Below are positions 45,407-50,300 of a DNA stretch of 64,000 nt, piece after piece; the stretch's first letter is position 1; the number at the start of each line of letters is the position of its first letter. The notes beneath the pieces are model-generated. The model worked only from the letters and a program-made list of their open reading frames with translations, did no database searches and was not told where the DNA came from. The translations under genes and the position numbers were made by a program. The DNA is from Candidatus Desulfofervidus auxilii (GTDB lineage: Bacteria > Desulfobacterota > Desulfofervidia > Desulfofervidales > Desulfofervidaceae). The stretch is taken from the NCBI GenBank assembly GCA_030262725.1, contig JAJSZS010000007.1:1-64000 (forward strand). The letters run 5' to 3'.

Positions 45407-46707
45407 TAGATTTAAATAAATATTATCGAAGAATTGTTGAATCTGAACCGATTTTAGTAAGGGGTAAAGTGAAAAAAGTAGTTGGACTTGTTGTTGAGGG
45501 TGCGGGTGTGAAGGCTGCTGTAGGTGATGTATGCGAGATTGTAACAAGTGATAAAAAAATAGAGGCAGAGGTGATTGGTTTTAAAGAAAATATGCTTCTT
45601 TTAATGCCTTTTGGTGAAATACGAGGAGTTTTACCTGGAAGTGAAATTCTACATTTGGAAAGACGAGCTACAGTAGGTGTAGGTAAAGGATTATTGGGGA
45701 GAATAATAAATGCTTTAGGAGAACCACTTGATGATAAAGGAGGAATAAAAATAGAAGAAGAATACCAACTTTATGCTCTATCTTCCAATCCACTTGAAAG
45801 AATTCCTATAGATACACCACTTGATGTAGGCATAAGAAGTATAAATGGATTACTTACTTTAGGAAAAGGCCAAAGAATAGGCATCTTTTCTGGTAGTGGA
45901 GTGGGAAAAACAACTCTGCTTGGGATGATGGTGAGGAATGCTGAAGCTGATGTGAAAGTAGTTGCCCTTATTGGAGAAAGAGGAAGAGAAGTGAGAGATT
46001 TTGTGGAAAAGCATATTAAAAATGCTATGAATAAAACAGTTCTAGTAGTAGCAACTTCTGATCAACCGCCTCTTTTACGTATGCGAGGTGCTTTTGTAGC
46101 AACAGCTATTGCCGAATATTTTAGGGATCAGGGAAAAGATGTGCTTTTAATTATGGATTCTCTTACCCGTTTTGCTATGGCTCAACGTGAATTAGGGCTT
46201 TCTGCAGGTGAACCACCTACTACTAAAGGCTATACACCTTCAGTTTTTGCTACTTTACCAAAGCTGTTAGAAAGGGCAGGTTATTGGCAAAAGGGTAGTA
46301 TTACTGCTCTTTATACAGTATTAGTAGAAGGTGATGATATGTCAGATCCTATTGCTGATGCTTCAAGGGCAATCTTAGATGGACATATCATACTTGCACG
46401 AGAACTTGCCAGACAAAATCATTATCCTCCAATAGATATTTTAAACAGCGTTAGTAGAGTAATGCCAGATATTGTAGATCAAAAGCATCTTTATTTAGCA
46501 AATGAATTTCGAGATGCTTTGGCTGCTTATAAGTCTGCAGAAGATTTAATTAATATTGGTGCCTATGTGAAAGGAAGTAATCCGCGCATAGATAGATCTT
46601 TAGAACTTATAGAAAAACTTAGGACTTATTTAAAGCAAGATATGAATGAAAAAGTTTCTTTTGAAAAAAGCATAGAACAATTACAGGAGATCTTCTATGA
46701 AATTTAA
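45403..46707 (+). CDS. fliI: Flagellar export ATPase FliI
   Basis: A 434-residue ATPase of the type III export apparatus, related to the F1 beta subunit. The Walker A is FSGSGVGKTTLLGMM and Walker B LLIMDSLTRFAMAQREL; the signature ELGLSAGEPPTTKGYTPSVF is also there. The ATG at 45403 overlaps the fliH stop as ATGA; an ATG at 45394 is possible. Length and motifs are standard. Confidence 0.96.
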   Translation: MIDLNKYYRRIVESEPILVRGKVKKVVGLVVEGAGVKAAVGDVCEIVTSDKKIEAEVIGFKENMLLLMPFGEIRGVLPGSEILHLERRATVGVGKGLLGRIINALGEPLDDKGGIKIEEEYQLYALSSNPLERIPIDTPLDVGIRSINGLLTLGKGQRIGIFSGSGVGKTTLLGMMVRNAEADVKVVALIGERGREVRDFVEKHIKNAMNKTVLVVATSDQPPLLRMRGAFVATAIAEYFRDQGKDVLLIMDSLTRFAMAQRELGLSAGEPPTTKGYTPSVFATLPKLLERAGYWQKGSITALYTVLVEGDDMSDPIADASRAILDGHIILARELARQNHYPPIDILNSVSRVMPDIVDQKHLYLANEFRDALAAYKSAEDLINIGAYVKGSNPRIDRSLELIEKLRTYLKQDMNEKVSFEKSIEQLQEIFYEI

Positions 46708-47134
46708 ATTAGAACAAGTTTTAACATTTCATCAAAAACAAGAAGAAAGATTATCAAAAGAATTAGCAGATATTAAATTAAAACTAGAAAATCAACGAGC
46801 TCATTTGCAGTCTTTAAATGATGAAAGAATAAATTTGCTTAATTCTATTCGTGATCATCAAGAAAAATCAGAAGGATTGTGGGATGTTATTGCCTGTTTT
46901 CATTATTTAAGTGTTTTAGACAAAAAAATCGAAAAGGCAAAGGAAGGGATTAATATTCTTAAAATTCAATATGAAGTAAAGCAGAAACAGCTTATTGAGA
47001 CAGCTAAAGAAAGGAAAATCTTAGAAAAACTTAAGGAAAGATGGTGGAGACAGGAACAGAAAGTTTTGCTTAAAAAAGAACAAGTATTATTAGATGAATT
47101 TGCTATTAATGGTTATGTGCGCAGGGAAGGTTAA
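46697..47134 (+). CDS. fliJ: Flagellar export chaperone FliJ
   Basis: A 145-residue all-helical coiled-coil protein in the position of fliJ, right after fliI with an 11-base overlap. FKLEQVLTFHQKQEERLSKE at the N-terminus is typical of FliJ, which forms the central stalk of the FliI ring. Sequence conservation in this family is low, so context carries part of the call. Confidence 0.85.
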   Translation: MKFKLEQVLTFHQKQEERLSKELADIKLKLENQRAHLQSLNDERINLLNSIRDHQEKSEGLWDVIACFHYLSVLDKKIEKAKEGINILKIQYEVKQKQLIETAKERKILEKLKERWWRQEQKVLLKKEQVLLDEFAINGYVRREG

Positions 47135-47603
47135 AAAAATAATTTGTTTAATCATAATTTGTTTAATTTTAAATTGGATTAAAGTACTTGCACAAGAAGA
47201 TGCTCCAAGGTTTGAAAAAGAAATTAAGCTTATAGAGCTTTTAAAACAAAAGGAAAAAAAGCTTATGGAAAAAGAAGCTATTTTAAAAGAGAAAGAGAAA
47301 AAATTATCTGCTATTAAAGATGAAATCACTGCATTATTAAAAAAATTAATGGCATTAAAAAAGGAATTAGAAAAATATTTTGCTCAATTAGAAGCTGTAA
47401 ATGATGACCGTCTTAATCAATTAGCTAAAATGTATGAATCCACTCCACCAGAACAAGCTGGAAAAATGCTAGAAGTGCTTGAACCAAAATTGGCAGCACA
47501 GATTATTTTACGCATGGATAAAACAAAAGCAGGTGCTATTTTAGGATATTTAAATCCTCAAATTGCTCGAAAAATCACTGAAGAAATGACAAAGCTGAGG
47601 TAA
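47115..47603 (+). CDS. MotE-like flagellar stator-associated protein
   Basis: A 162-residue exported protein: a hydrophobic signal or anchor (IICLIIICLILNWIKVLAQ), a coiled coil rich in Lys and Glu (about 35-95) and a C-terminal MgtE_N-like helical domain (LAKMYESTPPEQAGKMLEVL). This layout is that of MotE, a periplasmic stator chaperone described in Helicobacter, and of similar genes between fliJ and motA elsewhere. ATG 47115 overlaps fliJ by 20 bases; starts at 47109 and 47094 are possible. Confidence 0.8.
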   Translation: MCAGKVKKIICLIIICLILNWIKVLAQEDAPRFEKEIKLIELLKQKEKKLMEKEAILKEKEKKLSAIKDEITALLKKLMALKKELEKYFAQLEAVNDDRLNQLAKMYESTPPEQAGKMLEVLEPKLAAQIILRMDKTKAGAILGYLNPQIARKITEEMTKLR

Positions 47604-47605
47604 TT

Positions 47606-48379
47606 ATGGATATTGCTACTATTTTAGGTATTATTTCTGCCTTTGGTTTAATGATTGCAGCTATTTTGCAAGGTAGTGGTTTAACACTTTTTATAGATAT
47701 TCCATCTGTCTTAATAGTAGCTGGAGGAACTATTGGTGCTACATTAATAGACTTTCCTTTAAAAGAAGTTTTTCGAGCAGTAAAGGTAGCCAAAAATGCT
47801 TTTTTTAACAAACTGGAAGTTCCTACAGAGTATGTACGCCTTCTTGTTTCTTTTGCTGAAAGAGCACGTAAAGAAGGGATTCTTGCTTTAGAAGCAGAAA
47901 CTGAAAAGATAGATAATCCATTTCTTAAAAAAGGTCTTCAAATGCTTGTAGATGGTTTTGAACCAAGAGTAATAGAAGATACTTTAGGGAAAGAGATAGA
48001 TTATTTAAAAGAAAGACATAAATTGGGAGCAGATATTTTCACTGCTATGGGTACATTTTCTCCAGCTATGGGAATGATTGGTACTCTTATAGGTTTAGTG
48101 CAGATGCTTCAAAATATGTCTGATCCAAGTTCTATTGGGCCAGCAATGGCTGTTGCATTGATTACCACTTTTTATGGAGCTGTCTTGGCTAATGTAGTTT
48201 TTCTTCCTATTAGTGGCAAACTTCAAGTATTAAGTAAATATGAGTGTTTAATAAAAGAAATGATTTTGGAAGGAATATTGGCTATTTCAGAAGGACTCAA
48301 TCCTCGAATAGTTGAGCAAAAACTTCATGTATTTTTAGAACCAAGGCTAAGGGCATTAACTGAAAAGAAGGGAGAGTAA
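47606..48379 (+). CDS. motA: Flagellar stator protein MotA
   Basis: A 257-residue stator subunit with four helices. The N-terminus has GIISAFGLMIAAILQGSGL and PSVLIVAGGTIGATLIDFP, and the cytoplasmic loop carries the charged FliG-facing region around AERARKEGILALEAE. The last two helices have FSPAMGMIGTLIGLVQML and AVALITTFYGAVLANVV, with the conserved prolines. It is of the PomA/MotP-like type, so sodium driving is possible, but the ion is not certain. Two motB genes follow. Confidence 0.95.
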   Translation: MDIATILGIISAFGLMIAAILQGSGLTLFIDIPSVLIVAGGTIGATLIDFPLKEVFRAVKVAKNAFFNKLEVPTEYVRLLVSFAERARKEGILALEAETEKIDNPFLKKGLQMLVDGFEPRVIEDTLGKEIDYLKERHKLGADIFTAMGTFSPAMGMIGTLIGLVQMLQNMSDPSSIGPAMAVALITTFYGAVLANVVFLPISGKLQVLSKYECLIKEMILEGILAISEGLNPRIVEQKLHVFLEPRLRALTEKKGE

Positions 48380-49122
48380 TGCCAAGGAAGAAAAAAGAAG
48401 AAGAAAGTAAAAGACCTAATACTTTTGTAATTAGTTTTGCTGCACTCTCTACTATTATTCTAGCATTTTTCATCACTATGACTACAATGGCCACCATTGT
48501 TGAAGAAAAGGTAGTAAGAGGTTTTTATTCTATTAGAGCAAGCTTTGGGGTAACTGGTGGGAAAATCTCTCCATTAGAAAGTTTCTTAGGTACCCTAGAG
48601 GAATACACTTTGGAAGGTGTAGATCATAAAGCAATTTTACAATTACAAGAGTTTTTACGTAAGCATCCTTTAGCAAAGGATATTCATTTAGGTATTACAA
48701 AAAGAGGATTGATTGTAGCATTGGGAGCTGATTTGCTATTTTCACCAGGAAGTGCAGAATTACATCCTCGCATTTACCCAATTTTGGAAAAAGTTGCTTG
48801 GTTAATTAGTAGTTGTAAAAATCAAATAAGGATAGAAGGTTATACTGATAATACTCCTATTCATACTTCACTTTTCCCTTCTAATTGGGAGCTCTCAGGG
48901 AATAGGGCATTAGCTGTTTTGAAATATTTCTTAAATAAAGGAATTCCAGCCAAAAGAATGGTAGCTGTTGGCTATGGAGAAACAAATCCTCTTTTCCCTA
49001 ACGATACTCCAGAACATCGAGCAAAGAATAGAAGAGTATGGATTGTTTTAGAAGGAATACCAAAAAAAATAAAGAAATCAGAAATTTTAAATGTACGAGG
49101 TTTTATTTTCAAAGTGAGGTAA
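48379..49122 (+). CDS. MotB-like protein 1, lacking the ion-binding aspartate
   Basis: A 247-residue MotB-family protein: a basic N-terminus, one helix (FVISFAALSTIILAFF, about 16-31), and a C-terminal OmpA-like peptidoglycan-binding domain (EGYTDNTPIHT, NWELSGNRALAVLKYF, HRAKNRRV). The essential Asp in the MotB helix (as in TYSDMMTLLLTFF of its neighbour) is replaced here by Ala22 in SFAALST. The reading frame is otherwise intact. It overlaps motA by one base. It cannot carry ions in the usual way, so a structural or anchoring role is likely. Confidence 0.88.
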   Translation: MPRKKKEEESKRPNTFVISFAALSTIILAFFITMTTMATIVEEKVVRGFYSIRASFGVTGGKISPLESFLGTLEEYTLEGVDHKAILQLQEFLRKHPLAKDIHLGITKRGLIVALGADLLFSPGSAELHPRIYPILEKVAWLISSCKNQIRIEGYTDNTPIHTSLFPSNWELSGNRALAVLKYFLNKGIPAKRMVAVGYGETNPLFPNDTPEHRAKNRRVWIVLEGIPKKIKKSEILNVRGFIFKVR

Positions 49123-49125
49123 AGA

Positions 49126-49788
49126 ATGGCTAAAAGAGATCCAAATTTTTGGATGCTTACTTATTCTGATATGATGACACTCCTTCTTACCTTTTTTGTG
49201 ATGTTAATTTCAATGTCTTCATTTGATATTGAGAAATTTAAAACATATGCAGCTAGTGTAGGTCATGCTTTAATAAGTGGAAATGGTCTTGGTATATTTA
49301 AAAAAGGAGGAACAGGAAAGATTGAATTAATTTCTCGTCGTGAGATTTTAGAACAATTAAAGAAAACTGTACCAAAAAACATAGTAGCAGAGCTTACCAG
49401 AAATATAGAAGTAATACCAAGAAAAGATGGGTGGATTTTTAGAATTCCTGCTGATATTCTTTTTGCTCCAAATAGTCAAGAAATTTCTCCTAATGCTTAT
49501 CCCATTTTAGATAAAATTTCTATGTTAATTAAAAATTTATTAGTTGATGTGGAAGTAAGAGGTCATACTGATGACAAAGAGAAAAATAAATGGGAACTTT
49601 CTTTAAGACGGGCAGCAAAGGTACTTCGATATTTTACTGAAAAGAAAAAACTAAATCCTGAGCGTTTTGTTCTTATGGGGTTTGCTGATACAAAACCTAT
49701 AGTGCCTAACATTAATGAAGAAAATAGAGCAAAAAATAGAAGAGTAGAAATTATTGTTAAAAAGAAAAAATTTATTATAGGGAGCTAA
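49126..49788 (+). CDS. motB: Flagellar stator protein MotB
   Basis: A 220-residue MotB with the normal features: a helix TYSDMMTLLLTFFVMLISM containing the ion-binding Asp15, a plug-like segment after it, and an OmpA-like domain (EVRGHTDDKEKNKWELSLRR, RAKNRRVEI). It follows the Asp-less MotB-like gene by 3 bases. Each MotB is different enough in sequence that this is not a recent tandem copy. Confidence 0.95.
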   Translation: MAKRDPNFWMLTYSDMMTLLLTFFVMLISMSSFDIEKFKTYAASVGHALISGNGLGIFKKGGTGKIELISRREILEQLKKTVPKNIVAELTRNIEVIPRKDGWIFRIPADILFAPNSQEISPNAYPILDKISMLIKNLLVDVEVRGHTDDKEKNKWELSLRRAAKVLRYFTEKKKLNPERFVLMGFADTKPIVPNINEENRAKNRRVEIIVKKKKFIIGS

Positions 49789-49790
49789 TT

Positions 49791-50300
49791 ATGGCAGAAG
49801 AAGAAACTCAAAAATTGGAAGAGAAAAAAGAAAAAAAGGACTTTCTTAAGCTAATAATGGTGATTTCTCAAATTCTCATTCTGCTTTTAGTTGTAGCAAT
49901 ATTTGTTTATTTTAAATTCTTTTTCTCTTTACCCACTGTTCCTGCTACAGTGGAATCACAAGAAAAAATAAAGAAGCAAGAAGAGTCTACTGTACAAAAA
50001 CAAGTAATTTCTCATTTAGATCCTTTTGTTGTTAATCTTTTAGATGAAGAAGGGAGACGTTTTTTAAAAGTAACAATAGATTTAGTAGTGGAGTCTGAAA
50101 AAGTAAGTAAAGAAATAGGAGAAAGATTGCCAGAAATAAGGGACCTTATTATTGTATGTCTTAGTGATAAAAGTTTTAATGAAATTTCAGACCAAATGGG
50201 GAAAATGAGGTTAAGGAATGAAATTAAACAGCAGCTTAACAGTCTACTTACCACAGGAAAAGTAACCAAAGTTTTATTTACTGAGTTTGTAGTGCAATAA
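49791..50300 (+). CDS. fliL: Flagellar basal body-associated protein FliL
   Basis: A 169-residue single-pass inner-membrane protein. A charged cytoplasmic N-terminus precedes a helix (MVISQILILLLVVAIFVYFKF), a linker, and the conserved FliL periplasmic domain from HLDPFVVNLLDEEGRRFLKV to VTKVLFTEFVVQ. FliL rings surround the stator and strengthen it. GGGAG precedes ATG 49791. Confidence 0.93.
   Translation: MAEEETQKLEEKKEKKDFLKLIMVISQILILLLVVAIFVYFKFFFSLPTVPATVESQEKIKKQEESTVQKQVISHLDPFVVNLLDEEGRRFLKVTIDLVVESEKVSKEIGERLPEIRDLIIVCLSDKSFNEISDQMGKMRLRNEIKQQLNSLLTTGKVTKVLFTEFVVQ

Follow-up and report, generated by a model that had tools for sequence, protein, structure and literature searches.

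Within the window, the 64,000-nucleotide stretch of Candidatus Desulfofervidus auxilii DNA analysed here, an intact operon runs head to tail in the order motA–motB1–motB2–fliL–fliM, followed by more flagellar genes (Table 1). The motA stop overlaps the motB1 start by one base (TAATG), and a gap of 3 nt separates motB1 from motB2. The best NCBIfam match of motA was PomA, at 309 bits, under that model's cut-off of 341. A further protein is encoded at 47094–47603, between a fliJ-like gene (46697–47134) and motA; its frame overlaps the one upstream, and its product gave weak matches to MgtE_N/FliG_M and to the flagellar collar protein FlbB.

Table 1 Genes and protein features of the tandem motB locus (window positions).
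Feature	Position	Strand	Basis
motA	47606-48379	+	PF01618; PomA-type, Thr160/Thr187/Thr188
motB1, Asp-less MotB paralogue, 247 aa, ATG start	48379-49122	+	Uninterrupted frame; Pfam cut-offs exceeded for MotB_plug and OmpA; low dN/dS in relatives
MotB1 transmembrane helix, residues 15-38	48421-48492	+	Conservation table; AlphaFold helix
MotB1 plug helix, residues 42-55	48502-48543	+	AlphaFold helix; motif conservation
MotB1 OmpA-like peptidoglycan-binding domain, residues 120-218	48736-49032	+	PF00691, 82 bits; AlphaFold pLDDT mostly >90
MotB1 C-terminal GFIFKV hairpin	49081-49116	+	Predicted structure and sequence comparison
motB2, canonical MotB, 220 aa	49126-49788	+	Asp in 79/79 tandem MotB2s
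fliL, stator-associated protein, directly 3' of motB2	49791-50300	+	PF03748, 86.6 bits

A sequence-only reading of this locus had described one MotA and two MotB-like proteins in a row, the first with Ala22 where the second has Asp15, and the codons confirm it. Codon 22 of motB1, at the ion-binding Asp position, is GCA (Ala; 48442–48444, +; protein segment SFAALSTIILAFF), and codon 15 of motB2, the ion site, is GAT (Asp; 49168–49170, +; protein segment TYSDMMTLLLTFF). The full OmpA-like domain and open frame noted for the first protein were also recovered: the 247-residue frame is intact, and Pfam scores were 82 bits for OmpA (cut-off 27.2) and 31.5 bits for MotB_plug (cut-off 24). With both matches above cut-off, MotB1 is a full-length MotB homologue. 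It has the architecture of a MotB/PomB B subunit (one N-terminal transmembrane helix, a plug and a C-terminal OmpA-like domain) and the expected gene context, adjoining motA in a flagellar operon, but not the transmembrane Asp, which has been described as universally conserved in MotB/PomB (PMC10374538). The helix keeps ILAFFI, while the W/T/Y/D/T ion signature is absent; an S-x-x-x-x-F-G-x-x-x-G-G motif, the hallmark of the MotB1 clade, begins in the plug helix.

AlphaFold prediction for MotB1 (40 MotB1s; mean pLDDT 86.9) gave the transmembrane and plug helices listed in Table 1, a confident OmpA-type domain and a C-terminal hairpin; for MotB2 (35 rows; 82.7) it gave a helix at residues 8–50 and the OmpA-type order of elements. 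The best PDB folds for the MotB1 model were the periplasmic domains of MotS, the Desulfovibrio vulgaris MotB-like protein DVU_2228 and PomB, with matches to MotB as well. GFxF-type tails occur in many MotB1s from several subgroups and are absent from other subgroups.

The source genome, estimated to be 99.99% complete, encodes no MotB_plug proteins other than MotB1 and MotB2. Nor was a second flagellar motA found in it: its other four MotA_ExbB (PF01618) matches lie elsewhere, none beside a MotB_plug gene, and are presumably TolQ/ExbB. Since the genome offers no further MotB and no second motA–motB neighbourhood, a functional stator has to be built with the window MotA. This protein has Thr (T160, T187 and T188) at the positions of PomA T158, T185 and T186, as have 100% of MotAs from loci with the same tandem arrangement. 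In PomAB the Na+ site is made up of those residues, which are reported to be shared by every sodium-driven stator (PMC10374538), so sodium coupling is likely, and the stator is probably sodium-driven.

The locus further resembles Vibrio PomA/PomB in its best-matching MotA model, in the T-x-x-D of MotB2 and in the periplasmic fold of MotB1; however, PomAB has one B gene, with the Asp in both copies of its product, whereas here there are two B genes, one of them Asp-less. Bacillus MotPS and other Na+ stators with a single B gene likewise share the OmpA-like periplasmic domain, MotS being the best fold match of the MotB1 model, but their one B gene carries the Asp and their B subunit is a homodimer.

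We compiled 79 non-redundant motA–motB1–motB2 loci of Desulfobacterota type and from Zetaproteobacteria, Nitrospirota and Troglogloeales. A MotB1 search in relatives contributed to this set, as did a profile search covering 395 genomes from the phylum and searches of named genomes and of two further groups. Of those 395, at least 41 carry the tandem among the best matches listed, including all six members of the window's order in the set; named carriers among the matches listed included Deltaproteobacteria bacterium Phox-21 (L058) and several Desulfobacterales MAGs. MotB1 and MotB2 N-termini are the same in L058 and L047. The tandem was present in all 30 zetaproteobacterial loci examined, in one Candidatus Troglogloeales genome (L082) and in two Nitrospirota genomes (G395 and G541; loci L106/L178 and L179), the other Nitrospirota loci read having single MotBs. 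No genome with MotB1 only was seen among the loci read.

At the Asp site, read from the 79 loci with a small transmembrane profile, MotB1 has Ser in 29, Glu in 28, Ala in 11, Gly in 6, Gln in 2, Asn in 1 and Asp in 2. The Asp is thus absent from 77/79 MotB1s but present in every adjacent MotB2 (79/79) and in 121/121 single MotBs downstream of a motA. Two apparently Asp-less single MotBs both proved to be MotB1s, one followed by an Asp-bearing MotB2 (L159) and the other truncated by the end of its contig (L045). The ion-path residues Trp-6, Thr-3 and Thr+3 are mostly lost from MotB1, while the MotB-specific LLxFF(I/V)xL stretch of the helix shows strong conservation: of its FF pair, F+9 was found in 50/50 and F+8 in 49/50. 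The counterpart of F+9 in E. coli MotB, F41, lies at the dimer interface (PMC10659934).

A maximum-likelihood tree was built from the periplasmic parts only, leaving out the columns that define the trait; the search was quick, and support for the deepest branches was moderate. In it the 50 sampled MotB1s form one clade that also takes in a lone single MotB (L063), and the subgroups of MotB2 mirror those of MotB1, the window's order lying next to Zetaproteobacteria in both, for example. MotB1 and MotB2 distances were correlated (Mantel r 0.63, 0 of 2000 permutations), and a partial r of 0.43 remained once MotA was taken into account. Where dS was unsaturated, the dN/dS of MotB1 was 0.06–0.25; in the least saturated pair (L233/L235, dS 0.235) the ratio was 0.069 for MotB1 versus 0.039 for MotB2. 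Judged by these ratios, MotB1 is under purifying selection. Together, these comparisons show at the level of sequence that MotB1 is a sister of MotB2 that is old, under selection and devoid of the Asp, encoded in a tight operon with the sole motA.

The two Asp-bearing MotB1s (L006 and L139) indicate that the Asp-less state is not indispensable. One of them, L139:1468–2256 (+) in genome G387, has an intact W-T-Y-D-T signature (TTYCDLMTLMLSFF), and its sister L054/L177 (G233) has Asn. This relationship suggests repeated loss of the Asp, with L139 a possible intermediate; the periplasm-only tree is compatible with one or several losses in MotB1.

On balance, motB1 and motB2 probably each supply one of the two B subunits of an obligate mixed stator, for which MotA5:MotB1:MotB2 is the most likely stoichiometry that we infer. 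The near-exclusive partition of the Asp between MotB1s and all other MotBs argues for this, as do the single MotB1 clade with its matching MotB2 subgroups, correlated distances and purifying selection, and the presence of a sole motA and no other MotB in the genome. So does a MotB1 helix that keeps F+8/F+9 without the ion signature and has complementary-looking interface residues. Stop–start overlaps, with a median gap close to 0, are consistent with coupled and matched synthesis. An asymmetric pair of B subunits also has a structural parallel: the structure of Vibrio PomAB shows inequivalent Asps, one engaged and one disengaged (PMC10374538).

The interface residues are suggestive only. At position +13 the MotB2 residue is larger than that of MotB1 in 50/50 genomes, and at position -1 the MotB1 residue is the larger in 40/50, with anticorrelated sizes (r -0.49); an A31I change at -1 renders E. 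coli non-motile (PMC10659934). The (-1,-1) pair ranks 6th of 170 position pairs, a signal confounded by phylogeny. Counting against a mixed stator, the interface of MotB2 resembles that of single MotBs, so that a MotB2 homodimer could form, and two MotB1s bear the Asp.

MotB1 might instead form its own non-conducting MotA5(MotB1)2, which would take up stator positions or draw MotA away, tuning torque as a built-in dominant-negative stator. Its complete transmembrane, plug and OmpA architecture and its FF motif would suit this, and an Asp-less MotB can assemble with MotA, as in the C. jejuni D22N complex cited in PMC11940233. We nevertheless think such a unit unlikely: MotB1 shares an operon with MotB2 and tracks it across several phyla, never alone among the loci read; its bulkier -1 and smaller +13 residues appear poorly suited to a homodimer; and a constantly expressed inhibitor with one MotA would mostly be a cost in torque.

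Equally improbable, in our view, is that MotB1 lies outside the MotA ring as a membrane-tethered periplasmic anchor or scaffold that helps to position MotA5(MotB2)2 units about the rotor, in the way that MotX/MotY or FliL act in other motors. Favouring this placement is genome G004, which shares a genus code with G003. Its MotB1 (L006:1489–2223, −) is chimeric, with a MotB2-type, Asp-bearing helix (WIVTYSDMVTLLLTFF) that is 79% identical to that of its own MotB2 (tandem mean 35%) and 25–50% identical to the MotB1 helices of relatives; its periplasmic domain is 54–63% identical to relatives' MotB1s and 31–37% to MotB2s. It looks as if G004 regained the Asp by N-terminal exchange between neighbouring motB1 and motB2. 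Here the helix was replaced and the domain stayed, giving an Aquifex-like layout (PMC4525482) and pointing to the periplasmic domain as the constant part of MotB1. However, the conservation of LLxFF(I/V)xL, and the fact that this helix could be replaced by a MotB2-type one, point to a place inside MotA.

The sequence-only reading had named Aquifex as a parallel, and the layout does correspond: in Aquifex aeolicus a single motA precedes two motB genes whose periplasmic regions differ greatly (PMC4525482). The likeness does not extend to Asp loss. The transmembrane regions of Aquifex MotB1 and MotB2 are 97% identical, against 23% for the periplasmic regions, and both transmembrane regions drive rotation in chimeras (PMC4525482), which rules Aquifex out as an Asp-less precedent. 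Neither Aquifex MotB has lost its ion site, and the operon resembles G004 rather than the window; B1–B2 transmembrane identity across the tandem loci averages 0.35, and only G004 (0.79) comes near the Aquifex figure. Taken together, G004 and the Aquifex layout indicate that differing periplasmic domains are the constant feature and that the Asp-less helix is exchangeable. Another motor with one A and two different B-type subunits is the Myxococcus AglR–AglQ–AglS gliding motor, but there neither AglQ nor AglS has lost the Asp, and both are TolR-like (PMC9389320).

Less likely again is that MotB1 still carries ions, with Glu in Zetaproteobacteria, and Ser, Asn, Gln or the backbone elsewhere, binding Na+, so that both B subunits would conduct and differ in ion or voltage range. 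MotA would supply the three Na+ threonines, and in Zetaproteobacteria (L096, L208–L237) the site is Glu in 28/30 rows (FLELMMQMLAFF) and Gln in the other two (L219 and L236); this Glu may be partly functional. Yet 17 rows have Ala or Gly, with no side chain for a cation, and W-6, T-3 and T+3 are mostly lost. That MotB1 is a functionless, decaying duplicate that lost its catalytic residue after duplication is refuted by intact frames across several phyla, low dN/dS and a confident OmpA fold; an Asp-less form confined to one genome as a decayed copy, the outcome against which the sequence-only reading had set its claim, is not what the loci show, and the residue counts in MotB1s and MotB2s likewise dispose of chance and of a sequencing error.

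In the mixed stator that we favour, the MotB1 helix would lie beside the MotB2 helix within the MotA pentamer, packed as a heterodimer, and MotB1 would be anchored to peptidoglycan through its own OmpA domain. Ions, probably Na+, would be loaded and released solely by the MotB2 Asp with the three MotA threonines, and MotB1 would serve as a structural and anchoring half-axle that carries none. The standard rotary model has two Asps alternating around a ring of five MotAs; with a single Asp, each turn would be made in about five large steps rather than ten, a different gear ratio. Most E. coli Asp32 mutants are non-functional, and special adaptations would therefore be needed for a unit with one Asp to work. 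Such a mixed axle would fix genetically the asymmetry between Asps that is seen in PomAB. The earlier suggestion, that the first protein may enter mixed stators or act as an anchor that carries no ions, is thus partly supported and is the best-supported reading, with the mixing itself a proposal; because the site is mostly Glu in Zetaproteobacteria, the absence of ion carrying may fail for some MotB1s.

Our literature search, with subscription journals mostly outside its reach, found no account of a normal MotB with an Asp-less partner, and priority is uncertain. The annotations 'MotB' and 'OmpA family protein' seem to hide a distinct subunit, which could be given a name of its own and studied. 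Whether these loci define a class of flagellar stator with an obligately asymmetric MotA5:MotB1:MotB2 axle and a single ion-carrying Asp, in which the alternating two-site mechanism would not be required and half the ions would pass per turn, we regard as an even call. A natural and widespread Asp-less B subunit offers a direct test of whether the 5:2 motor needs two ion sites, and bears on what sets the number of ions per turn and on the role of the second B subunit beyond ion transport. The recurrence of the MotB1/MotB2 pair across bacterial groups suggests that a rotary motor may run on one ion site, not two.
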